A stretch of 64,000 bases of DNA from Cladocopium goreaui (Eukaryota; Sar; Dinophyceae; Suessiales; Symbiodiniaceae). Positions 28,963-48,025 of this stretch are shown here, piece by piece. The position numbers were made by a program, and so were the translations under genes. The notes beneath the pieces are model-generated. The model searched no databases, had not been told where the DNA came from, and saw only the letters and a program-made list of their open reading frames with translations. The stretch lies in the NCBI GenBank assembly GCA_947184155.2, contig CAMXCT020003713.1:298501-362500 (forward strand), in the 5' to 3' direction. Position 1 is the stretch's first letter; the number at the start of each line of letters is the position of its first letter.

Positions 28963-28993
<31 letters not shown>

Positions 28994-29292: not shown

Positions 29293-29396
29293 GACATCGA
29301 GGCCCGAAAAGCCATGCTTCGAGAAGCCCTGGAGGTGGCGCTGAGCGACGGCACGTTGGACGCTCGGGGATGGCAAACGATATATGCTGGGATGGG
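29293..29396 (+). CDS. DGRL-repeat exon 1 (divergent)
   Basis: Acceptor CCCTTCAG precedes DIEARKAMLREALEVALSDG followed by TLDARGWQTIYAG, with a GTAAGG donor at 29397. The core L-x-x-A-L-S-D-G-T-L matches the 30-residue module seen repeatedly downstream. GC content jumps from the flanking array to coding-like. It begins GAC-ATC after AG, exactly as the next exon does. Confidence 0.7.
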
Positions 29397-30836
29397 GTAA
29401 GGCGGGTTCACATTACTTGCTATATGAATTTGTAAAGCACCATACAGACTATACCATGATATAACATCATATAAAATCTATACAAGATGATTGAACGAAC
29501 ATCCACCGCGCCTGTCCTGTTTAATCTTCAGGAGGATTGCCAGGAATGGTGTTTATCCCCCATCGGATGTGTTACCATGATCTAGTTTCCGATTGTTGTT
29601 CGATAGGGCTTTCCGTATTATTATATGTTGTTTTACCATATGGTAAACTATGTTTTACCATGAATGCAAAGGTCGTATGAATCACCCCCCTAAAAGGTAA
29701 AAATCACCCCCAATTAAAGAACTAGGGCTTGTCATACATAAAAACAACCAACCTGCCCGCCAACCTGCCTGGTCAGAATTTCATTCCGAAATCAATTTAC
29801 TTTCAATTGATTTTCCGTTTAAATCTAAAGGATAAGTCAGGATTTCAATTGAAATCAGTTTATGGCCGGGGGGGCTAAGGGTGTTTTTTAGTTGGGGATG
29901 CGCATGCACACTATTGGGGGGCGACAACCTACCTGAGCGGGTACCCTTTAAGAGCTTCTCAAAATTCAATTTTTTAATAAAAAAGTAATCAGGAAAATAC
30001 ATTTTTGTTCAATCAGAAATTTTGGGATTTCCCGAAAATTTGGGGATTCTATGCCTTGAATCTCTTCAATCTCAGCACCAGAACCATGAGGTCAGAAACA
30101 TCAGAACCAAATCACTTTCTCACCACTGACCACTAAAAAAACTATATAGGATTTCTGAGCAGGGTGTTGTTTAATAGGGCGGGTGTCGCACATGTTGATT
30201 AATAGGGAGGGACCCACCCAAAATAGTATTGCCAAAAGGTTTTTGCTGTGCGGGCGTTGATTAATTCGGGGATGCTTATTCATGTGAATTTAACATAATT
30301 TAACATTATGTTGTTTCTTTTTCCTTCCCTAATAGCCACAAGGACCTTTGAAGGGCGAAGATTTGTCACGGGGGGTGAGACCGCAACAAAAACGTGAGCC
30401 ACGCTTCAAAACATGTTCGACTCCAAAAAAAGGATGGTATATGACGGTTAAAGCGCAACATTTAACCATTTTTTGCATAATTTTTGATGATTGGTACATA
30501 AAATTGCTCACTTACAGTGACAGCTTCAGCTTCCGTATTTCGGGCTGCGCCGGCTGTGCCACATTTTTTCCAACAAGGAACAGGTGCTGATGGACTGCAG
30601 CCCCAAGGTTGAGAAGGATCAGGAAGTTGAAGTTGGGTCAGGGCACAGGTCGCAAATTCACACAATCTTGATGCTTTGTTGGGCGAAAATTAGTCTTCCC
30701 GGCCCTTGGCCAATCTTTTCTCAAGTTGGTCTCAAGCTCAACTTATGCCAACAAACATCTCGATAAACAAAAATCACGAAACCAAACCATTTGTTGAAAT
30801 TCAATCAGGAAGCAGGATTCAGCCCAGCACAGCCAG
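29397..30836. other. Intron, nothing recognised
   Basis: The sequence is AT-rich and unique in appearance. Around 29630-29665 TTTTACCATATGGTAAA forms a short palindrome. Open frames at 30330-30600 on both strands have no motif or splice support. Confidence 0.5.
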
Positions 30837-30921
30837 GACATCCGGATGATGGCCCGCAAATGCCTGACAGATGCAGTCAGTGATGGACGCTTGCAGAAGG
30901 TCGCCATGGAGAAGGCCAGTG
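30837..30921 (+). CDS. DGRL-repeat exon 2
   Basis: CACAGCCAG precedes DIRMMARKCLTDAVSDGRLQ then KVAMEKASG, with a GT donor at 30922. The module L-T-D-A-V-S-D-G-R-L-Q-K matches the repeat core. It starts D-I-x-x-x-x-R-K like the preceding exon, showing the two exons are paralogous along most of their length. Confidence 0.8.
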
Positions 30922-30936
30922 GTAGCATATCATTGC

Positions 30937-31045
30937 TATATGGAGGTTCCATGAGGTTTCCATGGGGGGTACCCCGATAAGGGAAAATCCGATCTATAAA
31001 TGGATGATGAACAGGGGTACCCCCATTTCAGGAAACCTCCATATA
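30937..31045. mobile_element. MITE family B copy (TATATGGAGGTTTCC ends)
   Basis: A 109-bp element with ends TATATGGAGGTT and GGAAACCTCCATATA as inverted repeats, and inner GGGGTACCCC-type blocks also inverted. It begins 15 bases downstream of an exon donor. A sister copy is at 59090. Confidence 0.8.
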
Positions 31046-33050
31046 TTCTTACATAGATCCCCCATTAAATTAAATGGAGAGCTGACTACATGATGGCATA
31101 TGGAAATACAAGGACATGTGTTTAAATCTATTTCATGGGATGTTGTATATAAATGATTTGCTGTTTAGTGGGATTGGAATTGATGTGGTTTGAGAACGGT
31201 TCCCACGCCGGGAACAAGAGACGGGAAGGTCATCAATGCCTGTTACTGTATATAGGTCGTAAAGCATGCTGTTTTAGGATGCACAATCTCGACACATACC
31301 AATATTACTGTAGAATATTGCAAGGGATAGCCAACAGCCATACACCCAGACGAGCGCAGGATGTCAGCTAATAAGAAAAACTAATAATAATAGGGTAATA
31401 TTATATAGACATATATAGACTAATAATATTCATAGTAGTAATTCGAAGGTCTGCGCCAAGGTACTTTCTCGTTTGTGGTCTTGCTCAGGTCAAGTGTCTG
31501 TCTCAAGTATCCCCATTGAAACACGACGGACGACGAAAGACGACGAAGAGAAAAAAACGAGCAAAAGGGTTTCAAGGGTTCCTCTACGGGACCTCCGGGG
31601 GAAGAAATTCCAAGGGTTCCTCTCCGGGACCTCCGGGGAGGAAAAAAAAAAATAAAATAAAAAATTAAGACGGGCACATACCATTGAGAAAAACACATAG
31701 CATGTTTTATGCATATTTGCAATGTTCGGTGGCAAGTGTTCTTCCCCGGGGTATGGGTTTGTCTCCGGGATTTTAGATTTTTTTCTTTTTTTTTTGCGAC
31801 CTTGAGCGCGACCCTTCACTGTGGGAAAACACTTGGCCCTGAGAAATCCTTCGAATATGGGAAAGTTTTCCAGGAATACGGCTGGGAAACCAGGACCTTT
31901 GAGGAGGGGAAAAAGAAAGCACCTTTGATACAGGGAGGAGGGTTGAGACAGGCACATACCATTGAGAAGGTAGAAAACCCTTCATCCAGACTTTTGAGTA
32001 ATAATAAGAATAAAGGTTAATAATGACTATTAATGAATCTGAAGTTTTGCCATCCATTGAATACTGTTTCAGCGACTCATGCCGAACTCTGTATCTTTGC
32101 TCATATGTCAGGGGACATTTATATGGGTAATTACTAATCTGTCCATTAACTGCTAAATCGAAACCATCTTGACGGGATGAGGGCTCAATGATCCAGCATG
32201 TGAAGGCACTTCTTTGCCACAGCATGGAATACATGTGTGCAAATTAGATCACAACGTCATCACATCGTTACCAGATATCCTGGTGACTGTAAACTGCAAA
32301 GTCGTCCAGCATCTCAGGTCAGGTGAATTGTGATTATTACTTTTAACTGTTATCATAGCGCCTCAGGACTATGAAGTCTACTACCCTGGGAAGCTTGAAC
32401 TGTTAATGTTATCATTCAGTTTTATACGTATGGATTCCCACCAGGTACATAGAACGTGGTGCCCCCAAGGTATTTCAATCTATATATATCCGCCGCAAAG
32501 TGTAGCTATACAGAAGTTGTATACCAACGCGGCATAACTTGGCAAACTACTTGGAGGAGGTGCAACTCCAGTCATAAGTGGATATATTTCACCACAGTCA
32601 AAGAGGCCCCATATACCAACAAACATGGGAGTTATAGTCCGATAAGTTGTTATCTCCATGCAACACACCCCAACCGGAGATAATTCGTAGTTTTATTATA
32701 ATTACATATTTATACATTATAACATATTATAACTTGATTTTCATAACTGTCCCACATCATGCCAAAATTATCCCATACTCTCCCAACATTATTCCAGACG
32801 TCCCCGATCATTTTCTCAGACGCAATCATCATCTGTCAAGTTGTTCACAGCCCACCTGAGACTCTGAGATCATCAGCAGTGTTCAAGACCCCTGTTGGTT
32901 GATGATTCTTGATGATTCTTGCACATTTAGAATCATTTATAAAATCATTTTCAGGTTTTTAATAATCCATGGACTGGGGATAATAATATATAATAATCAT
33001 CTCTAATAAACATGTCATTTTGATTCTACTGGGGATCCAAGAAGTGTCAG
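31046..33050. other. Intron with small duplications, no gene recognised
   Basis: AAGGGTTCCTCT..GGGACCTCCGGGG occurs twice at 31567-31641 with a period of about 42 bases. A phrase including GGCACATACCATTGAGAA recurs at 31673 and 31947. No convincing exon was found. Confidence 0.5.
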
Positions 33051-33157
33051 CTCCAGGCGTCCCAGAAACACCTGCAGCTCCGCGAACAGATCTCCGCGCA
33101 GCTGATGAGCGCGGCAGAGGATGGACGCCTTGAGGCCGCCTTGGCGCGGCAGGCCAG
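33051..33157 (+). CDS. DGRL-repeat exon 3 (near consensus)
   Basis: Acceptor GTGTCAG precedes LQASQKHLQLREQISAQLMS then AAEDGRLEAALARQAR, with a GT donor at 33158. This is one of the clearest modules. An amphipathic helix (LREQISAQLMSAAE) leads to D-G-R-L-E-A-A-L and a basic tail. GC content is far above the flanks. The 5' edge could also be 33057 or 33066, as CTCCAG and TCCCAG follow. Confidence 0.85.
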
Positions 33158-34006
33158 GTGGGGGTCGGATGGGGTCCGCGGATCCGGAAGATCTGCCTGG
33201 GCAGTGACTGGAAGGGATGGGAATATAACGGTTATAACATGTTATAACATCTTACTACCACAATGGAGGTTTAATACTACGACAACATGGAGGTTTCATG
33301 ATTTTAGAGGGTTAAACTTCACACATGGGGTGTTCACCATTAGAAGATGTTCGAAGCAGCTCGGTAAATGGCAATTTCATGGGATATTGGGCCAGAATTG
33401 GATATAAAGATATTTCGACTGGGTTAACCAACTGGATGCTGTAGTTTAGTGCGGTCATAACCTTTGGCTATAAGTGAACATGAAGAATCCCAACTGAATG
33501 TATGCAGGATGTCCAAGATCGGCCATGTCTTGGAGGTAATCAGCGAGAATGATATTGATCAATGGATTATTTAGACGATCTTCATAGAGGAATCCCATCC
33601 CCCTGAAGTTCAACAGCACCGAGCCAAAACCCTGGTGGAAGGTATTGTTGGATCTACTGTCCGCCCACTTGGTCATGTAGATAGTTTGCTCAACTCAGCG
33701 GATATTGACATAGCAATCGTTTGTACATGATGTTCCCAACTATAAACCTCCATTTAGTGCTGGGGTTTTCCAGCCATGCTTGATGACACCTGATGCTTCA
33801 ATAAAATCAAGGCTTGACAATGTCCATCTTCTGGCCAGGGTAACGTGAGGTGACCATCGAACAGAATGATATTGGCAGTTCCAAACAACGCCTTTGGGAG
33901 TCCCAAGAAGATGACAAAGATGAGAACAAAGATTTAACAAAGATTAGAACAGTGATTCCAGGATCCATAGGATAACCATCGGGGATGCCCCAGAGAACCT
34001 CCAAAG
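33158..34006. other. Intron, weak candidate exons only
   Basis: Around 33505-33535 CAGGATGTCCAAGATCGGCC could start a tiny exon (MSKIGHVLEV), but there is no corroboration. Nothing else was recognised. Confidence 0.35.
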
Positions 34007-34066
34007 GTGCAGAAGGGCAAGATCGTGGACGAGGTCATTGACGTGAAGAAGGGAATGAGTGCTGGA
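34007..34066 (+). CDS. Tudor-like cassette copy 1, exon A
   Basis: After CCAAAG the frame reads VQKGKIVDEVIDVKKGMSAG. It is paralogous to 34850-34918, with D-E/G-x-I-D-V-x-K-G-M-x-A-G-N shared. An in-frame TGA follows at 34070 where the second copy has TCA. The donor must therefore lie before it, or this copy is broken. Confidence 0.6.
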
Positions 34067-34276
34067 AACTGAGGACCTGTGTGCCGCCAACATTCCCAGG
34101 ATATACAGTGGAGCCATCTTTGACACATTTTAGAGGGAAGATATCTGAGATACAAGGAAACCAGAGATTTCAAAGCTAAGTTTGGGGTTGAACATGGACC
34201 CAGCATGTCCACACTACATCTACTGAGTGGTGACTCCGCGCTAAGTTTGCGCTGAATGACCACGGCATCAGCCAAG

Positions 34277-34350
34277 GTCACCAACATGAGGCGGCAGCAA
34301 AGCGGGCACGTCCTTCAATTCACTGCAACTGATGTGTTGGTGAAGCTTGG
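34277..34350 (+). CDS. Tudor-like cassette copy 1, exon B
   Basis: After GCCAAG the frame reads VTNMRRQQSGHVLQFTATDV then LVKLG. The second copy at 35317 reads VTNTRFQQNGQVMQYTATDV then LVKLG, so they are obvious paralogues at DNA and protein level. The end is where the two copies stop matching. Confidence 0.7.
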
Positions 34351-34508
34351 CCAAGAGCTGCTGTTGGAAATTTAATTTACAATTGACTACAGTACACCTT
34401 TTAAAAAACCGGGAATATGCCGTGCAATATTCATGAATATTCTGCAACTGGGTCAACTTGGTTAGCCCCCCAAAAGTGGATCCCGTGACCAAAATCTTTC
34501 CTCACGGG

Positions 34509-34594
34509 TCTTACTGAGGAAATATGAGGATGGCAAGACGGAGTGGACCGAGATTGAAGACTTGAAAAAGCTGTGGATCCTCAGTTGCGATTAG
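34509..34594 (+). CDS. Tudor-like cassette copy 1, exon C (frameshifted end)
   Basis: The frame reads LLRKYEDGKTEWTEIEDLKK and then L. Compared with 35942-36030 one G is missing after AAGCT, which shifts the frame and leads to TAG. Y-x-D-G-x-x-E-W-x-x-x-x-x-L is the signature I associate with Tudor/agenet-type barrels. This copy may be decaying or may use an earlier donor. Confidence 0.6.
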
Positions 34595-34849
34595 AGTCAG
34601 GTCCAAAGAGCCAACGAACCCACCAGAGGTCAACGGCTGTGGTGATAGCACGTCAGTGATGGTAGGGTCTATCTCAGTTACCACTGTTCCAAAGCATGGT
34701 TGACGCACATGCTTGATTATCAACCAATGCCTAACTTGGATGTTTACCCAGAGGTATCCAGAGATGTGATCCATTGCAGTGCTCTGCTGGTTTTCCCTTT
34801 GTCCATTTGGGATGATGACGATGACCGTGGGATGTGCTGAGCCACCAAG

Positions 34850-34918
34850 GTGGTTCGGAAGGACGAGCTGGTTGGTGAGATCATCGACGTGAGGAAGGGA
34901 ATGCGTGCTGGAAACTCA
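34850..34918 (+). CDS. Tudor-like cassette copy 2, exon A
   Basis: After CCACCAAG the frame reads VVRKDELVGEIIDVRKGMRA then GNS. This is the intact partner of 34007-34066, with no internal stop. The hydrophobic/charged alternation fits the first strands of a small beta-barrel. Confidence 0.65.
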
Positions 34919-35316
34919 GGGGGCGTTCCCCAAAATGCTGATCATGTTAGTAATTTGTATATAGTTATGTATGCAGTAAATTATACCCAATTAAGAACCA
35001 CAAATGGGTGGTATAAACCATCAACATATGGGTGGTTTAACCTCGGACGGGATTGAAGCTGTAGGATGCCAACTTTCCCTGGGTATACCCCAAATTCACC
35101 TGTTCATCACATTTCATCACCATATTCCCCAGAAAAACGTCATTTTGGTGGAAGTCTGGATCCATTTTTATAGGAAGATCTCAAGTCATTAAGGAATACC
35201 TAAAATAATAGAGTATCATAAAACATAGAAACGAACAACATCCGAAGTTTGGGATGGAACGTGAACTCAGACTTTCAGACAGGTCCGTGGCAAGTGTTTA
35301 CCATGGCAGCCCCTAG

Positions 35317-35390
35317 GTCACCAACACGCGTTTCCAACAGAATGGGCAGGTCATGCAGTATACTGCAACAGATGTTTTGGTGAAGCTTGG
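35317..35390 (+). CDS. Tudor-like cassette copy 2, exon B
   Basis: After CCCTAG the frame reads VTNTRFQQNGQVMQYTATDV then LVKLG. It is the paralogue of 34277-34350 and keeps the same start point directly after AG. A TATC array begins about 130 bases downstream inside the next intron. Confidence 0.7.
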
Positions 35391-35524
35391 CTGGTCAAAT
35401 ATGGAGGTGCTATTTTTTTATTTTTTTGTTTTTTTTGTTTTCCAGCCTGGCTTTGTGGCTTTTGTGGCTGCTGTGGCTTTTGTGTGTGTGTGGCTTTTGT
35501 GGCTTTACCATGCTTTACCATGCT

Positions 35525-35722
35525 TTACCTATCTATCTATCCATCCATCCATCCATCCATCCATCTATCCATCTATCTATCTACCTATCTATCCATCCAT
35601 CCATCCATCCATCTATCTATCTACCTATCTATCTATCTATCTCTATCTATCTATCTATCTACCTATCTATCTATCTATCTACCTATCTATCCATCTATCT
35701 ATCTATCTATCTATCTATGCCA
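35525..35722. repeat. (TATC)n/(ATCC)n array inside cassette copy 2
   Basis: CTATCTAT and CCATCCAT units run for about 200 bases. It is absent from the corresponding intron of cassette copy 1 and largely explains the longer exon B to C distance in copy 2. Confidence 0.9.
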
Positions 35723-35941
35723 CAGCTAAATGACCCTAAACCATCCGAGATTCGCCCAGCTCGGAGGATTTGGGTACCGAAACCAATGGGATCTCAAGAG
35801 TTTGTCTCAACATTTGAGACTCCCCCAATGCTTTGGATGGGGAGGATGGAAAACCGTAGGATTTAGGGGTGCCCCATGTTTGGAGGAACGCAACTAGATG
35901 TCGTCGATGTTTTTTGGATATATGAGGCTGGGTCAGGGGTC

Positions 35942-36030
35942 TTGTTTTGTTTGCTGAGGAAATATGCAGATGGCAAGATGGAGTGGACAGAGATTGAAGA
36001 CTTGAAAAAACTGGTGGATCCTCGGTTGCG
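35942..36030 (+). CDS. Tudor-like cassette copy 2, exon C
   Basis: The frame reads LLRKYADGKMEWTEIEDLKK then LVDPRLRLGLD. It keeps the frame that copy 1 has lost. Together A-B-C of this copy give a barrel-like sequence ending in Y-A-D-G-K-M-E-W. Such domains often bind methylated or acetylated chains, but here the function is inference only. Confidence 0.7.
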
Positions 36031-36262
36031 ATTAGGACTTGATACTTGCATGATCACCCATGGAGTTTCAAGTGGTCAGGAGAGTTTCGGGTCGATTTGC
36101 CATGAAATTCCATAAGCCAATGCGGACAAACCATGCTTTCCAGTCAATTTTCTAAGACGTTTGCATCAAACCTCTTATCAAACATTGCGAAATATCGTGG
36201 TTTCCAGTGGGTTTTCTCATCCAAAAACGGCACCTGACCCTGTGATGTCCGAACAAACCCAG

Positions 36263-36378
36263 GTGCCAAACAGCCCTTGTGGGGAAGAGCTTCGAAAGCA
36301 GCTGGGTGCACAGCTGCTGGCGGCCGCGGATGATGGTTCTTTAGAGGCCATGCTGAGAAACAAGGCCAGGAAGGCTTT
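36263..36378 (+). CDS. DGRL-repeat exon 4
   Basis: Acceptor AACCCAG and a consensus GTAAGC donor bracket a segment reading VPNSPCGEELRKQLGAQLLA then AADDGSLEAMLRNKARKA. The module helix L-R-K-Q-L-G-A-Q-L-L-A-A-A is followed by D-D-G-S-L-E-A-M-L. The 116-nt length is close to the 118 nt of two sister exons. A minus-strand frame here is a shadow. Confidence 0.85.
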
Positions 36379-37316
36379 GTAAGCCTTCTCATCCCCAACC
36401 TTGGTAGTCTAAGTATGTTTAATCAGTTTAATCATGTTTAATCCTTTGGTTTGTTGCTATAAATGGAAAATCACCACTTAACCATGAAAAGATTAAGGTA
36501 TTTTTTGTGGACTACCAAAGATTGACCATGTGTATATATATATTATATACATATGACCATGTTATGACCAACAGTTTGCGAACTGGAAAATCACAATTTT
36601 AAGTATATGTTGAACAGCTAATCATCGAGCTAGATGGGCCAGTTTCCATAGCCACATCAATCACGAGAGGGTATTGGAATTGGTTAGATTTTTACGAGTT
36701 AATGCTTGTTATCTAATGATTGTTAATGGCTTGCGATTTAGATGCGTGAATGGATGGGTTGCCACTCCCCTAACATTACGCCAGTTCAACACCTGCGAGT
36801 GAATTATGTGTATATATATATATATAACTCATTTGTACGTTCCGGGATTCCGGTGGCTTTGTTTGGTGGGAGTGGGACCAGGGGCTAGGCCTCCCAGGCT
36901 TTGTGGTTGGAGATTCCCCTACGAAATCTCTCAGTAATAAAGGAAAAACATGGAACAACTGGAGAGATCATGAGAGACCTACAAAATCCTACAAACATGT
37001 GCACCTGACAGCATATATATAGTGAGTATAATGCATGTAGCTAGGGGCTTCTGACAAGATGATCCTATTGAAGCCAGAGCAGTTGCCCAGTCAGGCTGAA
37101 GCCAAGGCGGAAGACTTGCGACTGGAGGCAAGATGGGCATGTACAAATGAATGCAGGTGTAGCTTGTGGATTCATGTGGATTGTAGATATTTATATAATT
37201 TTGATTTTTGCATACGACTTGTTTAAACTTTGCTCACGCTCTTCAACATTTCCATGTGAAGGTTCAGATGCAACTAAGTCTTATATGATCTTATATGTTG
37301 TACGCATTTACTGCAG
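36379..37316. other. Intron with a possible short exon near 37083
   Basis: Between 36575 and 36672 lies a degraded MITE family A copy (AATCACAATTTTAAG to ACGAGAGGGTA). Around 37083-37132 an open stretch reads AEAKAEDLRLEARWA after CAGTCAG, which is helical and exon-like but short. Confidence 0.4.
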
Positions 37317-37393
37317 GTAGCTGTGAAATGCTTGGCGCAATTGGATGCAATTGGCATTTCCCAGCAGATCCCAGTCTTCAGTGATGCTGTCAG
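37317..37393 (+). CDS. Exon, unrecognised (VAVKCLAQLDAIGISQQ)
   Basis: Acceptor TACTGCAG and a GT donor at 37394 bracket a segment reading VAVKCLAQLDAIGISQQIPV then FSDAVR. No repeat core is present. It may be a linker between repeat exons 4 and 5. Confidence 0.6.
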
Positions 37394-37566
37394 GTATCAT
37401 CCCCCCGCAGAACACAATGGTTTACCGTGGTCCATCCCAACCTGTCCAAATTTGTGGATGCATCCCAGGTATTCATGGGATATGTATGGACTGTATGGAT
37501 AGTTACAATCGTATGGATATGATATACGGATATGACCACTCTTTCAAATCCGCCAGCCGCTGCTAG

Positions 37567-37684
37567 ATTGGACAACAGCTGCTGAATGCTGTTGAAGATG
37601 GGAGTCTTGAGAAGATCCTTCAAGAGAAGGCTGAGCCTGTGCTACGGGCTGATATAGGATGGCTGCTTGGGGGTTGCTGGAATC
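37567..37684 (+). CDS. DGRL-repeat exon 5
   Basis: An in-frame TAG just upstream forces the acceptor CTGCTAG. The exon then reads IGQQLLNAVEDGSLEKILQE and KAEPVLRADIGWLLGGCWN, with a consensus GTAAGG donor. The core matches Q-Q-L-L-A-A-A-E-D-G-R-L-E-A-A-L, and 118 nt equals repeat exon 7. Confidence 0.8.
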
Positions 37685-38806
37685 GTAAGGGGGTATATAT
37701 ATATATATGAAGTCTCCTAATTGCATAAATGCGCGTATCTCATGTGTATGTATATATATATATAAATATCCTATTTCCATAGTATAGTTATAGGGATTCT
37801 GGGACGGTGACCAGCAACCAATGAAATACATACTCTCTCACTCTCTCTCTCTCTCTATATACATATATATACATATATACATATATGTATATATATATAT
37901 GTTCCAGGTTCGGGGACCCCCCCTCCCCCCCACGGTCATGGTTCCCCCCCTTCCCCTGTGGATGTGGTCCTGTAGGTAGTATAGGTACTCATGGTCCCCC
38001 CCCTCTCCCCTGTGAATGGGAGTTGGGTGTATATAGTCTCCCCCCCCAGTTGGGTGTATAGAGTCTCCCCCTCCACCCTGTGGATGTGGGAGGTGGGTGG
38101 GTCCTGTAGCTAGTATAGGTAGTAAAGAGGTAATAATATAACTATACTCTTTAGTTCCTATATAAGTAGGTGATATCAGCTTTGAATATTATTCAATGCA
38201 ATGCTGTCATTTTCTATGCCAAATTATGGTCGCCGTTTCATACCAAGGTTTTTGCTGTACATACCATGGAAATATGAGGTTCTCCATCCAAACTGGTGCA
38301 AATACCATGGAAATATGAGGTTTTGCATCCAAAATGTCAGGGAGTAGGGGACCATACCATTGGGGGGGGGCTACGGGACCGGGGACCGGGATCATATATA
38401 TATATATATATGTAATTATATACACGTATACACATATCGATATGCGGAATATCCTTGAATATCCCCGATTATCTACACACACACATACACACACACACAC
38501 GGATATACGTATATATATATATATATGTGTATATATGTATATATATAATATATGCTTTGCACCAGTGCTTAGCAATTTGATTTACAAATTGGAATGCGGA
38601 ACCAAGTAATCAGAGGTGGCAGAATAACTGGTCATTCCACCATGCATCCAAGTTGATGGTGTACATAACCAGCCAATTGCCAGCCCATATCCCCCTTGAC
38701 TTAACATAAGTATGGAAAAAAACATGAACAAACACCATTTTTATCCATTTTTATACATGTTTCATAGGTCAGACATCCATCAACGGGCCATTCTCCACAG
38801 CGCTAG
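37685..38806. other. Intron with C-rich, CT and TA tracts
   Basis: C-rich runs (CCCCCCCTCCCCCCC) lie at 37915-38090 and TA/CA tracts at 37850-37900 and 38390-38560. A roughly 40-bp direct repeat containing ATACCATGGAAATATGAGGT lies at 38261-38333. No gene was seen. Confidence 0.6.
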
Positions 38807-38910
38807 GCCACTTCTCTGGCCGAGCAGGTCAGGCTGCGGGTGGGGCAGCAACTGGTGGCTGCCGCAAGGGATGGGCGTCTGGAGGCAGCGCTCTTGCGAC
38901 AGCAGGCAGG
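38807..38910 (+). CDS. DGRL-repeat exon 6 (near consensus)
   Basis: An upstream in-frame TAG sets the acceptor at GCGCTAG. The exon reads ATSLAEQVRLRVGQQLVAAA then RDGRLEAALLRQQAG, with a GT donor at 38911. A later donor at 38950 would add SDIHQLAHQLADR. The shorter form fits the RQA-R end of repeat exon 3. Confidence 0.85.
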
Positions 38911-39512
38911 GTCAGACATCCACCAGCTGGCCCACCAGCTGGCTGATAGGTGGTTTATCCATTGTTTATCCCATTATTGATAGGGCTGATAGGGTTTCAA
39001 CATGTTTCAGCCATGTCTATTCACAGAAAAAGGGAACAATAAAAAATGTTCCCAAGAAAATGGGGGTTTGAGTGGGAAAGTCATCGAACTCAATGGTGGA
39101 TTTTCCAGACCATGCACCGGACCAAGATGGGGCGTTGGAAGGTGAGTTTCTTGTTGGAAATGAGTGTTTTGGAGTGCCATGTTCAAACTGCAAATCATAG
39201 GTATTTGCTGGCTAAAATCCAGTTCCTGTAGTTTATGTCCCCATGTGTATTGATTATATCTCCATCAAATCCCCTCATTCATGTTTTTTGCTGCCTGTTT
39301 TCAGCTGGAACATTCTAAGAATGGAGCACATGGAGGCTTGCTGCAAACGTTCCATTCAACATTTTCCATCAACCCAGTGAAATTCCAGAACTCATACTTT
39401 TAGTGGTGGTTTATGGTGGTTTCCTTATTTTTGAAGCTAATTTTCAACATTGAAGCGCGAAAACCTGGTGAGGAACCACGGTTTCTTTCGATTTTTCCGT
39501 TTTTTTTCACAG

Positions 39513-39630
39513 CCAAATCCCAGCTGTTCCAGGCTCCCAAGATCGACCACCTGGAGAGCGTTCGGCAGCAGACCGCTGCGCGGCTCCTGGCAGCCGCAGA
39601 GGCAGCGCTTTTCACGTCTTGGGAGAAAGG
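39513..39630 (+). CDS. DGRL-repeat exon 7 (DGRL core lost)
   Basis: A strong pyrimidine tract and TTTTCACAG precede KSQLFQAPKIDHLESVRQQT then AARLLAAAEAALFTSWEKG, with a consensus GTAAGG donor. The helix L-E-S-V-R-Q-Q-T-A-A-R-L-L-A-A-A-E is canonical, but D-G-R-L is replaced by A-A-L-F. Length is 118 nt. Other small edits suggest drift in this copy. Confidence 0.85.
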
Positions 39631-40528
39631 GTAAGGGCCCTAAGAAACCCGAAATCGCATCAACTTCCCAAGAAATGAAAGACATGTGCATGTGGTCTGG
39701 GGAGTTCCGGCCATTTCCCGGGCCATTCCGCCCACTTCAATTCTGCTTAAAGAATAGATGGCTTGCAGATTTCTGACTTGACTGTTGCATTTAGCTGTGA
39801 AGTAACCGAGGGCTTGATAGACAGTGGAGAGCTGGGGCTGGCATTCATTTGGTTTCCAAAGATTTGCAACTCTGTGTTTGTTTTCTTGGCTGACAGTCGA
39901 GTCGATATAGGTTCCCAGGATGAAATCCAAGATCCGTTTTGCTTGATAGACTTAATAAACTGATAAAAGGGACCTCACAAAAACAGGCCAAGACCATGCA
40001 ACACCAGGTTCTGTCAAAATCATGTGAAATTTGGTTTCCGCCCGTTTGATCCAAGTTCCTCCAAATCGTCCATTCTGAGCTAGTTTTCAGGAAAAATAGT
40101 GTTACTTTGGAATGCCCAGACATGTGTACACACATGTTTGACTGTATTTGCGTGTTTGTATATGTATAATATATATATACTAGTATATATATAAACAGAT
40201 TTATGGCACATCAATCTAGGTATATATCATCCAGGTAAACATCATTTGTTGGCAGGGCAACAAAAGTAATCTTGGCCATGAACATGTTGGTGATCATGCG
40301 AATCCTCGTTTGTACTCCCGGTTTTAACCAGTAGAAACAGGAGGTGATCCGTCAAAAAACGTTTCAGTACCCAAAATGCATGTTTCGCACCAAGATCCAA
40401 GTGATTTTGGAGAATGTTGCTGAGTAAACCTGGGCTACGAAGGTGATTTTCAGCCAAAGGTTCGCTGTTTGGAGGGTACCGCCATGATCCCAATGGTGAC
40501 ATGGCGTTCCCCATCCCCGGCCGCGCAG
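39631..40528. other. Intron, nothing recognised
   Basis: The sequence is AT-rich and unique, with a short TA tract at 40165-40195. Overlapping open frames on both strands carry no motif. Confidence 0.5.
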
Positions 40529-40620
40529 GACGGTCGCTTGGACCGTGCCCTGGGCCACAGCGACTTGGAGGCGGCGCGGCAGCGCTTGGCAGCCAACTTC
40601 CTGGCATCGGCAGAGGAGGG
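40529..40620 (+). CDS. DGRL-repeat exon 8 (starts at DGRL)
   Basis: Acceptor CCGCGCAG is followed directly by DGRLDRALGHSDLEAARQRL then AANFLASAEEG, with a GT donor at 40621. The exon is exactly one 30-residue module phased from D-G-R-L to the E before the next D-G. The splice junctions therefore cut the module at E|DGRL. Confidence 0.85.
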
Positions 40621-41009
40621 GTCATGGATGGATGGATCGTTGGTGGATCATGTCAACCCTTGAATAATAACCCCGTAGGCATATCTAGGCATATAATATA
40701 AACAATTGCGTCCTGATTAGTGTGAGGCCCCCCTCAACAATAGCTATACCCTCTTCAAACTTGGGCGCCAAAAATTGTCTTCCCAGGAAAAACGAATATC
40801 CGCACTTAAGTAAGGATTTCAATTGGCTACAATTGAAATCTAATTATATAACTCTTTTTTTTGCCGATGAACTTGTGGTGTTTGTAGTACTTGTAGTACT
40901 TGTAGTACCTGTAGTAGTTGTAGTACTTGTAGTACCTTGTAGTGAGTTGGATTTAACATGTTGACTGCGTTACCTTTTCCACCTTAAGTTTTTATTCAGA
41001 GTGTAATTT

Positions 41010-41100
41010 CTAAGAGAAAGATAAAGACTTAAAGAGAAAGGACAAGAGAGAAAGAGAAAGAGAAAGAGAAAGAGAGAGAGAGAGAGAGGAAGAGGAAGAG

Positions 41101-41132
<32 letters not shown>

Positions 41133-41300
41133 GAAATAGGACGAGGACGAGGAAGAGGAAGAGGAAGAGGAACAGAGAGAGAGAGGAAGAGGCACAGAGA
41201 GAGAGAGGAAGAGGAAGATGAATAGGAAGAGGAAGAGGAAGATGAACAGAGACAGAGAGAGGAAGAGGAAAAGGCAGGGGAAGAGGCAGAGGAAGATGAA
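41010..41300. repeat. Polypurine GA/GGAAGA tract
   Basis: About 290 bases are almost entirely A and G on the + strand, as AGAGAAAG, GAAGAGG and GAAGAA units. Such tracts can form triplex (H-DNA) structures. Serine-rich minus-strand frames here are artefacts. Confidence 0.9.
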
Positions 41301-41302
41301 CT

Positions 41303-41671
41303 CAGGATCAGCTCTGGAAAAGTTTGCTGCAACTGTGAAACCTGAGAACAAACCTACTAAAGTGAACTGGACCCTCTCATGGCCCAGTGCCTTGGAAATT
41401 TGTGGAAAAACTGTTCTTTAATAAGGGTTTAATCAGCGGTCTGATTCTTTTGGGAAAGGCTTGGACTTTGAACTTCTCAATTGCTTTTGTAAAAGGCTTT
41501 TCTTTCTTCTCTTGGCTCCAGGATCAGCTCTGGAAAAGTTTGCTGCAACTGTGAAACCTGAGAACAAACCTACTAAAGTGAACTGGACCCTCTCATGGCC
41601 CAGTGCCTTGGAAATTTGTGGAAAAACTGTTCTTAAATAAGGTTTTAATAAGCTGTCTGATTCTTTTGGGA
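41303..41671. repeat. Direct duplication, two about 153-bp copies offset by 216 bp
   Basis: CAGGATCAGCTCTGGAAAAG starts copies at 41303 and 41519. They match nearly perfectly to GATTCTTTTGGGA at 41455 and 41671. One frame reads SGSALEKFAATVKPENK, but no splice support or domain is seen. Confidence 0.9.
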
Positions 41672-41861
41672 CAGGGAGACAAGCAATATTTTTTTCAGGA
41701 AAAATGTTCAGATTTTTTTTTTACACCTGTTTTTTTGGACAAAACATGGTCTCTCAAGAATTTTGCCACAGTGAAGCTTCCAAACAATAAATGGGCTCAG
41801 AATAATTTGGAGAATTTTTGGCACAATAGCGAACCTATCCACTAATCAGCATCCAACATTA

Positions 41862-41945
41862 TATATATAATAATAATAATAGCAATAATAATAATAGCAA
41901 TAATAATAATGATAATAATGATAATAGTAATAATAACAGTAGACA
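41862..41945. repeat. (AAT)n / (AATAATAGC) array
   Basis: ATAATAATAGCAATAATAAT units, a trinucleotide microsatellite. Confidence 0.9.
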
Positions 41946-42043
41946 AAATGATAATGATGAAGTATATCATATACCCATATGTATCCCCCAATTCATTGTT
42001 GTGATTTGATGAACAAATCCGTTCCAAGGCAGGGTCCTGTGAG

Positions 42044-42172
42044 GACGGTCGCCTGCAACGTTTGCTGAGCGCTGGGAACGACCTGGACGCGCTGCGGCAG
42101 CGCGTCTCCCAGCAGCTCTTGGCCGCCGCGGAGGACGGGCGTCTGGAGAAGGCCATGCAGAAACGCAGCGAG
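42044..42172 (+). CDS. DGRL-repeat exon 9 (one and a half modules)
   Basis: Acceptor CCTGTGAG precedes DGRLQRLLSAGNDLDALRQR then VSQQLLAAAEDGRLEKAMQK and RSE, with a GT donor at 42173. The two D-G-R-L motifs are exactly 30 residues apart and define the repeat length. This exon shows the whole module uninterrupted, including the D-L-D-A-L-R-Q-R-V helix. GC content is about twice that of the flanks. Confidence 0.9.
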
Positions 42173-42320
42173 GTGCGGATGGGCCCGGATGGGCCCAGGG
42201 TGCTGGGGAAATGGCCATGGAAAATGGATTGAACATGGCCATGGAAAGGGTTCCATAAATGTTTCATAGGGATATTCATGGAATAATGGGATAATGGGAT
42301 AACTTAGGGATGATTGTGGA

Positions 42321-42432
42321 GTTACCCTTTGGTAATTAATCAAAACATGGCAATGAAGAATCCTCCATTTATAGTGGGTTTTCCCATTAAAATCTCCATT
42401 TTAAGAGGATTTGCCACGTTTCATTGCCAAAG
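42321..42432. mobile_element. Probable MITE family A relative
   Basis: It starts TTACCCTTTGGTAATTAATC and ends CATTGCCAAAGG, with TTTTCCCATTAAAATC inside. It has weak terminal inverted repeats and a layout like family A. A similar left end (ATTACCCTCTGGTAATCAAA) lies at 50683. Confidence 0.45.
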
Positions 42433-43560
42433 GATAAGTACAGTTATATATCCCACATACACACACCCTAGCCCTAGTCAACCAAGTCCTAAACCACCTT
42501 AGCTTTATCTAGGGGGAAACGTAAGAACAGGTTGAAAACATGGTGGTAACATAGTGGGAAGAAGTGAGAAAATTGAAGTTGGGTTGTGAATCAACGGACA
42601 TGTGTGTTGATTTTGATTCTCAGCCATTTTGATGAAGGAATGATTCCACTGATTGTTTCTCCCAGTAGCCATCCATGCCTGGGGTAGAAGCGTGGTCCAT
42701 AAATTCCTTTGCAAGAAGATTGCCTAGGCAGCTCTGCATTTGAAGGATCCTATGACCCATTTACCTACCTCTGTTGACCCCTGAATTTGTTCGCTCTTTT
42801 CTCACCTGCAACTAATAGTTTTTACCCTGATTGGGGGGCATTAGAAAAAGGCCAGTACAGTATACATCCCAGGCCCATCCCAGGCCAGAAGTGCGGTCAA
42901 ATTCAATTCCTATCGCCGATCATCATTCATAATGCTAATTTAATTAAGGGGCTCCTCTCACATTTTAAGAACAAATGCAGCGGGAGCGTTATATAAGAAT
43001 GTTGGTTGCCGATGGCCAGGGTCCCTCAATTTCTTAACGGAAAGGGCCCATGTATTTCAGTATGTATGTGCAATTAATCGGCCAAGATTCCCAACTTGCT
43101 CCAAATTCCAAATCTAGATTAAAGTCAATCAGAGCGCACAACACAAGAGCAGATAGATTTTCATAAAGTCTCCGCAACCTTAGGCGTGCATCCCAAACTT
43201 CTTAGGCTTGAAGATTCCAGGTCCCTCAATTTCTTAATTTCGATTTCCATATACATTCCACATCATTCCACAACACATATACGCGGGAAACAAATCCAGC
43301 CCCTGATTTTCTTAAACAAGGAATTCTTATACAGTGCTGGGACTGTAAGTGTTTGTCAATTTTATAAGTTATTATCCTGACCATCGGGTCGTGTAAACAT
43401 CAACAGTTATCATCAGTTATCCAGATGACCATTGCTACCCCTTTTTTACATGATGATATAATATGATATGATATATATTAACATATATATAATATCATAT
43501 AATATAAATAATATGGTATATGATTATGTAGCCAAAAAAATGCCTAACATCCAGATCCAG
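42433..43560. other. Intron, nothing recognised
   Basis: AT-rich unique sequence, with a TA/ATATCATA tract at 43450-43520. No exon was identified. Confidence 0.5.
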
Positions 43561-43698
43561 ATCATCCGCACGGCGTCGCCAGGCTGTGCAAGACTTGGTG
43601 CGTGGTAAGGCGGCCATCTCCCTACTGAAAGCTGCCGAGGACGGTCAGCTGGAGGAGTTGTTGATCAAGGGCAGTCTGGCCACTCGGATGAGACCCCC
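43561..43698 (+). CDS. DGRL-repeat exon 10
   Basis: After CATCCAGATCCAG the frame reads SSARRRQAVQDLVRGKAAIS then LLKAAEDGQLEELLIKGSLA and TRMRPPP. The core L-L-K-A-A-E-D-G-Q-L-E-E-L-L is clear. A stop at about 43717 means the donor lies before it. No GT fits well, so a GA or GC donor is likely and the end is approximate. Confidence 0.8.
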
Positions 43699-43881
43699 AC
43701 CCGGCATCAGAAAATAAGGGTAGAATGGCGCAACCCGCCATTCTCCAACTTATGATACTTATATATAATATTACCGTATCATCTTATTAATTATGATAGA
43801 CTATATACATAATTATATATATATAAGTATTAAGTATGTATATATATATAGGTTTTGAAGATGAAGCGTGTTTTTCTCTAG

Positions 43882-43941
43882 GATTGGCGATCCCAGTTGA
43901 TTGATGAACGGATTAGCAGTTTTGCTGAAGCACATGGGGAT
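43882..43941 (+). CDS. Short exon (DWRSQLIDERISSFAEA)
   Basis: A pyrimidine tract ending TCTCTAG and a GTATAA donor bracket 20 codons reading DWRSQLIDERISSFAEAHGD, phase 0 on both sides. It resembles the helix half of a repeat module without the D-G-R-L part. Confidence 0.65.
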
Positions 43942-44677
43942 GTATAATTATCTTTGTTATCTCACATTATACACACAAACGGATTTATATAAATATATAT
44001 CGCAAGAAAAGGGAGTTCCGCCGAAAGGCAGGTAGACATGACCAACAAAAGTTGGGGTATCAACCAAAACCAAAGATTGGATGCTATACAACAAAGCCAA
44101 ACGAAACTCACAATCGGGCGATGCAGCCAGCAGAATCAGAAAGAATGCTGGCGACGGAATGGGGTAGGTCGCCTGTAAATTTGTGTTGCTAGCCATGGGT
44201 ATTGATGCAGCCGCTCCGAACCGGGGGATGATGTAATTACGCTGTGTAAGCGTCTAGGATGTAAATAGTGAACTATTTTGCCTTCAGATGCCCAGCGATT
44301 TGTCGCGATTGCTTTGCAGCTGGCAAACATGAGTACCTACAGCCCGACCTAGCTGTATGTTCAAGGAATATAAGCTGCAAATGATGATGCCCCTGCCCTG
44401 GGATCTACTGGGAGGTCCCACATTGGGAACTGTCCATCCCCTAATCTTAAGAATTTTCTCACAACTCTTGCCAGGTCCCCCAAGGTGTGACTTCTCACCA
44501 AGGATGACATCAGGAGCAGAATCGCGATAAGCGCCTGGGCAGGAAATGCGCCATCCTTCAGCAAAGCATCCCTGAGATGATCCAGTATAGCCTTGAATAA
44601 CTGTGAGATTTCTGACCCGGCTGACCTAACCACCAACCAATACCAACCAGCCTCCAACGGCACTGGCGCGGTGCCAG

Positions 44678-44758
44678 GCATGTTCGAAGCCGCTGAGACA
44701 GATCGTTTGGAAGAAGCTTTGAGGGGCGATAAGCCTCAGGAGACCGAAAGCTTGGAAG
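44678..44758 (+). CDS. DGRL-repeat exon 11 (AAETDRLEEAL)
   Basis: After GTGCCAG the frame reads MFEAAETDRLEEALRGDKPQ then ETESLEG, with a GT donor at 44759. A-A-E-T-D-R-L-E-E-A-L is an evident variant of A-A-E-D-G-R-L-E-A-A-L. A 106-codon minus-strand frame upstream (44361-44681) overlaps only the edge and is not supported. Confidence 0.75.
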
Positions 44759-45387
44759 GTTGAGCTGAGGCTGCGGCGGTCAGTTTTGAAACCCTGGGGC
44801 CACTGTTTTCTTCTGGATATTCTTGGATTATTCGTTTCACCACGTATCATTAGTATCATTACTCAATGTGCATGACACGCTGATATCATGTTTCGTGGTT
44901 TCGCAAGTTCCATGATCCATAGTGGCCATTCTGATGAGATGAATCAGTGCAGTCCCAGTTGTTCCAACTGGTTCATGCAATATGATCGGTAAATATCGGT
45001 AATTTGTGTATTATATATATATATATATTTGTATTTATCTGGGTAAATTATAACGACCTCACTGCGACCTCACTGGAATCATGGTTGGTACTGTGATGCT
45101 GAACTCCCGGAGAGGGCGATGGAGAGAGAGACTGTAAGGGGAATCATCCCCAAATGGCCTTAATTCAGGTTAACGTGAGATATTATAATTTACCCAGATT
45201 TATTGACAATCATTGTAACTAGGTGATAGGTGGCCAAGAGATGGCTTTTGAAAGTGAAAACATACTCAATGGTTTTGCACCTTCGAACTATTTCATGCTA
45301 TTTGGATTGCACATGAGCTTAAACTCAACTTGAGATCATGATGAAAAGAAGCCCTGTGATGATCTGTGAAGCCCACCCACGTTGCAG

Positions 45388-45411
45388 TGCCCCGACGACT
45401 TCACCCCTCAG
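45388..45411 (+). CDS. Candidate 24-nt micro-exon
   Basis: ACGTTGCAG and a GTACAA donor bracket exactly 8 codons (CPDDFTPQ). Splice signals are good on both sides, but the coding content is too short to verify. Confidence 0.4.
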
Positions 45412-45644
45412 GTACAAAGGTGCCCCCAGATCCCGGGTTATTCATGCCTTGGTAGATTGGTAGATCAGTCACATACACGTACATCATTTATACATATTTA
45501 TACATGTATTGTCTCTATGTATGTAATATATATAACTACACATATATATATGCCTACATATCCATCTATCCATCGATCTATCCATTTGTCCATCCATCCA
45601 TCTATGTTGCTACGTGTGAATTTCCCAAATTTCCCCGTTCCCAG

Positions 45645-45759
45645 CTCTTTAACCCTTGGCGATGCGATGCATCAGGAGCTTCGGGTGGCAGCCACGACGC
45701 TAGTGCCATGGTCCGATGTGGTGCCGGATGAGATCCAAAACACGGAACTCATTGCGCAG
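45645..45759 (+). CDS. Exon (ELRVAATTLVPWSDVVPDE)
   Basis: CGTTCCCAG precedes SLTLGDAMHQELRVAATTLV then PWSDVVPDEIQNTELIAQ, with a GT donor at 45760. Length is 115 nt, like several repeat exons. M-H-Q-E-L-R-V-A-A-T-T-L occupies the module-helix position, but the D-G-R-L core is absent. Confidence 0.65.
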
Positions 45760-46726
45760 GTCTAGTCGGTGGCTGGTGGAGTTGATCTACCCCCATCAAA
45801 ATTGGAGGTTTGAATCGGTTTGAATGGGGACATCATGGAAAATCAGTATTATTTGTGGGTCTAAGAGGATCTGTTAGTAAAGCAATCTAAAGGGATCTGT
45901 TAGTAAAGCAATAGGATCCATCATCACCAATTTAACCTGGGTTGCTTAAACTATCCAAATATGGGTGGTTTATGATTGCTTTATACTTTATACCAACATT
46001 ACAGTAAACCCCAAGTATTTTTATAGTAACCTCCAAAATTATAGAAAGTTGTGAATTTTCACTATTTTGATGGAAATGTACTTTTCGATCTGTTTGGGAA
46101 TTACTATATATAGGGAAATGGAAGAATGGTTTTCATGGATTTTGATGGATTTATTTTCTATACAAAATGGTTGATGTGGGGCATATGGAATGCATACGGA
46201 ATAATGGGTGTTCAATGGATTTTGATGGATTTAACGTGTGTAATTATGGGGCTAATGGATTTCTGGGGTAGGCTTGCTTGTGATGTAAACTGTGGACAGC
46301 TGTAGGCGGGGTCATTGCTATGCAAATGGAACCAGCAATCGTGTCTGCAACGAGAATTCCCGATCCATCACTTTACTAATCATCAGAGGGTTTGGATTCT
46401 ACATGTTTTTTCACAGCTGGGGGTCCCCAACAAAAGCATATTATGTAGCCTAGCACGGGGCATTCTTTGTTTGCGTCCCCGCAACCCGCGTCCAGAGTCA
46501 TTGTAATGTTTGTTGCGTAGCAAATGCTGTCCAGCAGTGCGTCAGGCAGTGCATCAGGGAGTCCACAAGGGGAACAAACAAATATCATTCATATTCATAT
46601 TCATATGCATCTATTTACAGATCCTTTTCCAATCAATTTGATGTGGATTTCCTCGGCCAGCCTACGTTTGATGTAGAAAGAGAGGTCATGTACCCCCATT
46701 TTGTTTTTCAATCCACCATCTGGCAG
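45760..46726. other. Intron, nothing recognised
   Basis: A short direct repeat containing GGATCTGTTAGTAAAGCAAT lies at 45870-45912. No exon was identified. Confidence 0.45.
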
Positions 46727-46860
46727 ATGAGACCCCCAGCAACTGCCAGGCACATCTCGCAGCCCAGGGGCAGCTGAATATCGGAGCCCCGGCGGCGCAA
46801 AGCACGCTGCTGCGCTACGAACGCAGGCAGCGAACAGTCAAGGGCACCCCCCTGAAGAAC
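46727..46860 (+). CDS. Exon, unrecognised (NCQAHLAAQGQLNIGAPAA)
   Basis: Acceptor TCTGGCAG precedes an open frame reading ETPSNCQAHLAAQGQLNIGA then PAAQSTLLRYERRQRTVKG, continuing to about 46920 without a clear donor. The C-A-H-L-A-A-Q-G-Q-L part is reminiscent of the repeat module. A minus-strand frame overlaps and is a shadow. The right end is approximate. Confidence 0.5.
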
Positions 46861-47096
46861 ATCCCAAAAGAATGCAAAACATATGTAGAACTCAAAAGGG
46901 GCGTTTTTTTTTTGGGTGTGTGTGGTGGCATATATGCGCATGTATTTAATTTAATACATATTATATATATATAATCTATAATATATATATAGGTATATGT
47001 GTGTCTATGGCTCAGTTAGACATAGCTTTTGGAGTGATTTTGTTGGGATTCAAGGTCTGAGAAACGTTTTGGGGTGTATAATAAAGCCGATGGCAG

Positions 47097-47222
47097 ATTG
47101 TTGACCAGCTTGGAAACCACCAAGACCTGTTTGCGTGTGTGGCCCGTAGTGACAAAATAAAGAAGCGCACTGAACTGGACCAGAACCTGCTGTATTTGGC
47201 GCATTCCACCGAAGAAAATTGG
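47097..47222 (+). CDS. Exon, unrecognised (IVDQLGNHQDLFACVARSD)
   Basis: ATGGCAG precedes IVDQLGNHQDLFACVARSDK then IKKRTELDQNLLYLAHSTEE. A GTAATC donor begins at 47223 and the exon is exactly 42 codons in phase 0. Composition is convincingly protein-like. A 212-codon minus-strand frame over the same bases is less so. In another frame A-D-G-R-L-L-T-S-L occurs, probably by chance. Confidence 0.6.
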
Positions 47223-47756
47223 GTAATCCCGCAGTCCACACTGCCAGTCACCGGGATCATCACAAACCAACTGCACTGTCCAGCTGGCAGTACGGGTTGG
47301 GGAATTAACCAACAAAAGATAAGGATATACAGACAATGATGTACATACGTGAATATTGCCAGCGAATTCCATCGATACATGCGATACGTTCCGGTTATAC
47401 TCGTGGGTGGATATACAACTAAAACCAATCATATAGTTACAAGTAGGGGCCAATCTCCCACCAAACATGGGAGTTCGCTTATAATACCATAGTTCTACAA
47501 GAATTTGTCCCCCCCCCTGACTGCGCCCGAAAAAGGTAAGGTCCCGTGCCATTAGCCCCTCATTGAGTTCGATGATTTTCCCATGCAATTCCATCAAAAT
47601 CCAATAGACGTCCCTAAAAAACTCATTAGAACTGCTTTGAAAACCATTGGACATCCATTACACATCATTAGAAATCCATAAGCATCCATAAAACATCCAT
47701 TAAACATTCATGAAACATCCCATAAAAATCATCAAAATCCCATGGTGTTTCCCCAG

Positions 47757-47880
47757 TTTCGGCGCCAGGATTGGCACCTTAGTGGCTCAGATCCATCAGG
47801 CGGAGAAGGAGAGCCTCACGAAGAGCGCAGAGGCGGCCAGCCTCGAAGTAGCCCTACAGGACCGAATCATGGGACGATGG
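47757..47880 (+). CDS. DGRL-repeat exon 12 (divergent)
   Basis: GTTTCCCCAG precedes FGARIGTLVAQIHQAEKESL then TKSAEAASLEVALQDRIMGR. The S-A-E-A-A-S-L-E-V-A-L segment aligns with A-A-E-D-G-R-L-E-A-A-L. The frame continues to a stop at 47902. The donor is not resolved. Confidence 0.7.
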
Positions 47881-47926
47881 GAGCGATTTTCGGAACTTTT
47901 GTAGGGTTAGATATTGTTAGATATAT

Positions 47927-48025
47927 TCTGGTTGGTGGTTTGGAACATTTTTTATTTTCCATGACATATGGGATAATCCTTCCCATTGACTAATATTTTT
48001 CAGATGGGTTGAAACCACCAACCAG
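47927..48025. mobile_element. Intron element family C copy 1 (introner-like)
   Basis: It runs from TCTGGTTGGTGGTTTGGAAC to GGTTGAAACCACCAACCAG, about 99 bp with inverted-repeat ends. Inside is CCATTGACTAATATTTTTCAG, a branch-point-like CTAAT followed by T-rich sequence and CAG. Other copies are at 62265 and 63510. Confidence 0.75.

Follow-up and report, generated by a model that had tools for sequence, protein, structure and literature searches.

A family of DGRL-type modules joined to a degenerate phosphagen-kinase-like domain in a gene of the dinoflagellate Cladocopium goreaui

We analysed a stretch of 64,000 nucleotides of the Cladocopium goreaui genome (contig CAMXCT020003713.1, here C3713, positions 298,501 to 362,500 of the forward strand; hereafter "the window"), in which small exons encode variants of one short module of ~25 residues (LRxxAxxxLLxAAxDGxLExxL). 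We find that these exons are the middle of one + strand gene of ~55.6 kb (about C3713:294948-350585), which encodes a protein of ~1,130 residues containing, in order, a phosphagen-kinase-like domain, an IQ motif, modules, two Tudor-like units, further modules and a putative coiled coil. The protein is probably structural or docking rather than a working enzyme, and we favour, with some reservation, its interpretation as a dinoflagellate docking scaffold assembled from these parts (the kinase fold being degenerate), perhaps a flagellar one.

The small exons belong to a single gene

The evidence for a single gene comes from two intron-free contigs, the source of which is marked lgn. P0002, found with a composite query of the exons, is a protein of 576 residues (contig of 1,776 bases, 4 members) and is contained within P0016, found by a later profile search (1,012 residues; contig of 3,109 bases, 6 members). 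Because the genome's introns are absent from these contigs, we take them as cDNA. P0016 maps on the window as 46 exons between 2952 and 52085 of the + strand, which match it at 1004 of 1012 residues, read through without an internal stop and are followed by a TAG at 52086 (the final map uses exact seeds of at least 5 residues; earlier tblastn rows of less than 60% or less than 80% identity were discarded). Queried with P0016, the genome returned 25 matches, 20 of which lie on C3713. Both contigs join the module exons in the order of the window, as an initial annotation of the sequence had supposed in assigning them to one protein. That annotation had placed the element at 29293-47880 and envisaged a very large protein; the gene reaches far past both ends, the protein is not very large, and the modules occupy only its middle, after the phosphagen-kinase-like domain and IQ motif and before the coiled coil.

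The 5' end of the gene was located by tblastn with the N-terminus of a related protein, P0026, which matches exons in the window before 2594 (~1506-1556, 1813-1839 and 2541-2594, + strand, with approximate splice sites) and four earlier exons, including the ATG, upstream of the window (L014 5949-9347, with exons at 5949, 6884, 8188 and 9285).

The 46 mapped exons have a median length of 61.5 bases and are separated by introns with a median of 792 and a maximum of 5,035 bases; GC content is 0.59 in coding sequence and 0.42 in introns. Donor and acceptor sites fit without mismatch at 42 of the 45 junctions (GC-AG at 21, GA-AG at 13 and GT-AG at 8), under a scoring that favours GC/GA/GT-AG, so that the exact site may shift by a base or two. 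Such mixed GC/GA/GT donors are typical of dinoflagellates. The three junctions without such a fit follow exons 26, 36 and 39 and were read by eye. The end of exon 26 (34571-34576) is one base or one residue off both the contig and the sister exon 29, which reflects either a strain difference or an assembly error; the junction after exon 36 would be GT-AG on the assumption of a one-residue difference between the strains; and that after exon 39 is GA-AG, with one extra residue in the window.

Two of the junctions had been read before P0002 and P0016 were found: the exon ends at 39601 and 40615 were joined to the starts at 40529 and 42044 as AAE|DGRL, with GC and GA donors, and both joins were confirmed in the two contigs. 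In P0001, which comes from another contig, the 42044 exon is unchanged and both its flanks differ. The introns that begin at 39601 and 40615 lie at the same spot of two different modules, with AG|G at both ends, and look as if they had been inserted into a repeated sequence.

Other introns of the gene hold long tandem arrays, namely GATA-type at 27604-29201, a 16-base unit repeated 117 times at 13144-15003, and CATCTTCT-type at 11538-12549. Intronic sequence between exons 15 and 16, at window positions 21994-22626 (+), matches RVT_2 (reverse transcriptase) at E = 2.2e-5, below the cut-off, and by eye the surrounding open frames resemble a decayed Ty1/copia-type element.

Catalytic arginines are replaced in the kinase-like domain

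The N-terminal 5' exons and part of exons 1-15 (2952-19119, which also encode the segment that follows) code for a domain with homology to phosphagen (ATP:guanido) kinases. The C-terminal half of this fold (PF00217, ATP-gua_Ptrans) was identified in P0016, the contig of which ends short, at E = 3.3e-30, and both Pfam halves were found in P0018, P0023, P0024, P0026 and P0031 (N-terminal half in P0026, 5e-17). For P0026, the match to an arginine kinase with two domains has an E-value of 7e-67 overall and of 5.4e-32 for the better of the two. Fusion of this domain to modules was found in 7 proteins (the Pfam scan covered 29 of the 32 module proteins, all except P0001, P0010 and P0025, and the kinase domains of P0025 were taken from the source's Pfam listing).

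We then compared catalytic positions in an alignment of P0016, P0026, P0018, P0024 and P0031 (of which P0016 and P0026 are close kin) with the McsB-like protein of contig C1 (see below), leaving out P0023, the model of which lacks part of the domain, and P0025, which equals P0026 there. As references we used R124, R126, R229, R280 and R309, which we take, with their numbering, to be the five phosphate-binding arginines of Limulus arginine kinase. Given in the above order of proteins, the R124 site is His, His, His, His and Tyr, and the R280 site Val, Val, Thr, Asp and Ser, so that both are replaced in all five; the R229 site is replaced in four (Lys, Lys, Lys, Arg, Lys), and the Cys271 site is Ser in three (Cys, Cys, Ser, Ser, Ser). 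McsB keeps all the sites compared. The same replacements appear when P0026 and P0018 are aligned by HMMER to an arginine kinase of solved structure, and also for P0031 over the part that its alignment covers. The window itself reads His, Arg, Lys, Val and Arg at the five arginine sites, short of the full phosphate-binding set, with the R124, R229 and R280 positions encoded at 3018-3020, 5273-5275 and 6930-6932 (+); the Cys271 (6903-6905, within TSCPMN) and Glu225 (within NEEEH) sites are present.

Because charge is lost at two sites in all five proteins, we regard the kinase domain as a probable pseudoenzyme, the degenerate fold of which would then serve as a binding domain. Several observations weigh on the other side. 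The sites of R126, R309 and E225 are kept in all five proteins and Cys271 is kept in the window's lineage, so that the domain may have some activity; in an active kinase with altered chemistry, the IQ motif and modules would merely tether the domain, as in flagellar arginine kinases, of which Trypanosoma brucei has one (PMC4517888). Set against the replacement of R124 and R280 throughout and of R229 in four of five, we consider this unlikely, and prefer to regard the domain as a concrete candidate for a structural pseudoenzyme. Such genes should accordingly not be tallied as active creatine or arginine kinases. Among the names that sources give to these proteins, creatine kinase stands for one of Durusdinium trenchii and Ckb for one of Symbiodinium microadriaticum. 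Among four proteins compared with NCBIfam, P0016, P0026 and P0018 matched bacterial protein-arginine kinase models far under the cut-off (best 76.7 of 385 bits) and P0013 matched none.

Pieces that resemble the kinase-like part of P0016 at 53-76% identity, and are related to both P0016 and P0018, were also seen at C2678:43500-44500 (L024 274-731, - strand). They lie ~15 kb upstream of a module-bearing frame on the same strand, and C2678 thus probably carries a second kinase-module fusion gene of this genome. A search of the genome with PF00217 for a canonical phosphagen kinase to serve as a control returned one match; the search is blind to exon-split genes (it missed the window gene), and is thus uninformative about other kinase genes. 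The match, C1 1704830-1705390 (L019), lies in an intron-free frame of 364 residues resembling bacterial McsB, and C1 may be a bacterial contig in the algal assembly.

IQ motif, Tudor-like units and C-terminal helix

Behind the kinase-like domain, all 7 of the kinase-fused proteins carry an IQ motif (IQxxxRGxxxR), which is predicted to take up calmodulin. In the window it reads IQAIQRGRQER and is encoded by exons 17-18 (24626-24679 and 25290-25349, +), between linkers in exon 16 (23759-23833) and exon 19 (26040-26063). In P0018 and P0004 the pattern has a further match in the C-terminal helix, which is probably fortuitous.

Exons 24-29 (34007-36016, +) encode two copies of a unit of 58-59 residues with a weak likeness to Tudor domains. 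Such units were read from the alignment in P0016, P0025 and P0026 (P0025 and P0026 are labelled as two models of one gene, with one and two units respectively). A second place in the genome, C1640:66708-67106, resembles the pair (50% identity to P0016 508-622) and has two stops.

At the C-terminus, exons 40-46 (45673-52085, +) encode a region with a long predicted helix, which may form a coiled coil and so dimerise the protein. It includes the exon at 47769-47859, near the end (47880) of the span given in the initial annotation, which we read as coiled coil and not as a module.

Sister proteins hint at a flagellar location

In six other module proteins (P0007, P0013, P0014, P0027, P0029 and P0032) we identified a DPY-30/RIIa-like segment. 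Cut out, four of the six segments match Pfam Dpy-30 with E no higher than 0.1 (5.5e-6 for the best), whereas the full-length proteins all stay below the cut-off (best 20.6 of 22 bits, P0029). The best PDB matches of this domain were the enolase of 7n6g (1.9e-6), EFCAB10 (2.8e-4) and DPY30 of 7n6g (0.002), followed by two yeast Sdc1-type proteins (0.0057 and 0.029) and, more weakly, by NDK5 (0.11), a PKA regulatory subunit and FAP385 (0.16). We take 7n6g to be the central apparatus, EFCAB10 to be axonemal and Sdc1 to be nuclear.

These matches suggest a place for the protein in the flagellar axoneme, whose radial spokes and central-apparatus arms incorporate folds of metabolic enzymes. The C1b arm of the central apparatus holds enolase and nucleotide enzymes (PMC9113940), DPY-30/RIIa-type domains, that of enolase included, are tied to cilia (PMC8339350), Tetrahymena radial spokes carry adenylate kinases and other enzymes (PMC12399478), and in single-celled organisms phosphagen kinases occur chiefly in cilia (PMC6429109).

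Several points speak against placing the window protein there. No DPY-30 domain was found in P0016 (Pfam, E up to 0.05), so that the flagellar link passes through other proteins which share only the module with it. Among the sister proteins themselves, the P0013 segment has no Pfam match. Since the link is via the module alone and DPY-30 domains are not solely ciliary, a flagellar scaffold is the most likely place for the protein only in a tentative sense. A broader proposal, which we regard as slightly less likely still, is that dinoflagellates use the module as a docking repeat specific to their lineage, which anchors varied proteins, among them degenerate phosphagen kinases and proteins of DPY-30 type, in one machine, probably the axoneme, with the pseudo-kinase as a structural subunit. 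Both readings are weakened by the presence of two Sdc1-type, non-ciliary proteins among the five best PDB matches of the sister domain.

The same Sdc1-type matches, together with the tandem Tudor-like units, could instead point to a nuclear adaptor, with the units as readers of a methyl mark and the modules bringing partners to chromatin. The match to PTM_DIR17_Tudor is, however, not significant (0.01 in P0002, 0.014 in P0026 and 0.031 on a cut unit), DUF1850 scores slightly better there (0.0074, below the cut-off), no Tudor match was seen in P0016 at 0.05 and no PDB match to the units below 0.9. In the alignment, the units are also absent from the fused proteins P0018, P0023, P0024 and P0031. 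This makes a nuclear adaptor improbable, and leaves the Tudor-like label within the scaffold we favour a tentative one.

The module is a predicted helical repeat without an accepted family match

All seven module cores named at the outset are present on the + strand in open frames. In the mapped gene, exon starts are as first proposed at 29293, 36263, 37567, 38807, 42044 and 44678, while the starts given as 33051 and 43561 move to 33057 and to near 43580-43585. At least twelve small exons had been counted; 14 carry 11 modules, ten recognised by profile and one by eye. The latter is the first module (exons 20-21, 29293-29358 and 30578-30622, thus within 29293-30622), which is profile-matched in P0025 and P0026, not in P0016. 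It is followed by modules in exon 22 (30837-30914), exon 23 (33057-33152), exon 30 (36263-36364), exons 31-32 (37095-37127 and 37567-37629, one module cut by an intron), exon 33 (38807-38905), exons 34-36 (39533-39601, 40529-40615 and 42044-42174, three modules, with the two introns that cut modules at AAE|DGRL), exon 37 (43585-43678) and exons 38-39 (44503-44530 and 44678-44733), the last module lacking the glycine. All modules but the first are backed by the map and the family profile, and those of exons 23, 30, 33, 34-36 and 37 by leave-one-out scoring as well.

Over the 32 proteins in which we found it, the family profile recovers 263 copies of the module, with 193 distinct strings; its 17-residue cores comprise 132 representatives under 85% identity. 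The protein set is redundant (P0002 lies inside P0016, and P0014, P0015 and P0017 are near-identical) and is also a lower bound, both searches having scored ~8,000 candidates. Six of the 32 bear species names, all of them species that we presume to be Symbiodiniaceae, and the other 26 have none; the module is likely restricted to dinoflagellates. Elsewhere in this genome, the module also occurs on C5877, in what looks by eye like a P0013-like gene, and in two paralogues. Seven profile-matched modules lie in a single open frame of 443 residues on C2678 (L017 3186-4514, - strand), and seven more in a 426-residue frame on C3290 (L018 2638-3915, - strand), a variant with SGKL instead of DGRL and with proline/glycine-rich linkers.

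A distance of 30 residues holds between the two DGRL motifs inside the 42044 exon. As the fixed period that it had been taken for, we reject it: neighbouring modules of the window protein lie 29, 30, 32 or 35 residues apart, save for one exceptional gap of 153 residues that contains the Tudor-like units, and across the 32 proteins the commonest spacing is 33, within a range from 25 to far more than 60, with linkers that vary in length and make-up.

AlphaFold2, given the 42041-42172 exon and an alignment of 28 rows drawn from the window and from three paralogous contigs, modelled one and a half modules as helix, in agreement with the initial annotation (mean pLDDT 89, pTM 0.51; helix 2-32, break at G33, helix 34-43). 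Each module may thus be a helix interrupted at the DG glycine, and a run of them a chain of ~30-residue helices with glycine hinges that would present repeated helices to partners. Of the helical-repeat solenoid or scaffold first suggested, the helical part stands, while a packed solenoid finds no footing in a sole confident model of this span. The full-length model, at a mean pLDDT of 41.6, is too poor to use, also for judging a solenoid or the scaffold reading. Foldseek with the exon model gave no match at E up to 10.

The family was described at first as unrecognised, and no accepted match was found in the Pfam and PDB searches made, none of which placed the modules in a well-known repeat family: 28 single modules matched no Pfam family below E 0.03, and a 28-row module profile no PDB chain below 0.1. 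Other nominal Pfam matches in module regions were all below cut-offs and were set aside (DUF3400 at 1.1e-4 in P0006, DUF445 at 0.001 in P0003, TetR_C_28 at 0.0012 in P0007). An EF-hand was considered and rejected, the usual calcium-ligand positions before DG being alanines.

Diverged ankyrin repeats are a rival reading of the modules. For the stretch 42005-42181, all nine PDB matches up to E 10 were designed ankyrin proteins (best 0.081), Ank_2 reached 2.9e-4 in P0013, 0.018 in P0005 and 0.024 in P0011, and the commonest spacing of 33 would suit such repeats. Every Ank_2 score nevertheless falls below the Pfam cut-off (best 21.8 of 27.3 bits, P0013), the module profile found no ankyrin in PDB, a Pfam scan of the 28 single modules to E 1 found none either, there is no TPLH, the spacing varies too widely, and the model predicts a continuous helix (2-32) where ankyrin has a loop or beta-hairpin. 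We therefore think an ankyrin origin very improbable.

The cores were also scored against noise. With a profile built from six cores (not 44678), each was recovered on leave-one-out at 15.0-42.0 bits, five of the six at more than 30, set beside a ceiling of 6.4 bits for the full six-module profile when the window was resampled ten times by an order-1 Markov model; in the real sequence, a single stretch of the minus strand reached 6.8 bits. The 44678 core (4.9 bits) and a core at 30.8 kb (5.5 bits) fall within noise by this profile, and are backed instead by the spliced contig and the later family profile. That the exons arose by chance or stem from several genes, as the long introns might suggest, can be dismissed, since P0016 joins them in order and resampled windows score far lower, unless the P0016 and P0002 contigs are both assembly artefacts.

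With at least 193 distinct copies and no accepted match in Pfam, PDB or, for four proteins, NCBIfam, the repeat leaves its proteins unannotated or doubtfully named (Ckb, KIF13B, creatine kinase).

Comparison with known systems

Among the titles and opening lines of abstracts listed in searches of the open literature on dinoflagellate repeats, phosphagen kinases, phosphagen pseudokinases and flagella, none dealt with a fusion or repeat of this kind, subscription journals lying mostly outside those searches. Ankyrin repeats resemble the modules in an LLxAAxxGxLExxL core and in the commonest spacing, whereas the modules lack TPLH, are variably spaced and give no module-profile match. Axonemal enzymes with docking domains, such as the enolase in 7n6g, NDK5 and FAP385, offer the precedent of a metabolic fold used as a structural part, and are matched by the sister-protein domain at 1.9e-6, 0.11 and 0.16; the window protein, in contrast, is without that docking domain, and its place in the axoneme is putative. 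The guess that it belongs to dinoflagellate flagella is a testable one. Phosphagen kinases (arginine, creatine and taurocyamine) share both Pfam halves of the fold with the relatives P0018, P0023, P0024, P0026 and P0031 and the C-terminal half with P0016, while here the catalytic arginines are replaced and the domain is fused to an IQ motif, modules, Tudor-like units and a coiled coil. A similar joining of a phosphagen-kinase fold to an added targeting part is described for the T. brucei flagellar arginine kinase AK3, which has an N-terminal insertion (PMC4517888), whereas in the Cladocopium protein the addition is a long repeat region at the C-terminal side and catalytic residues are replaced.

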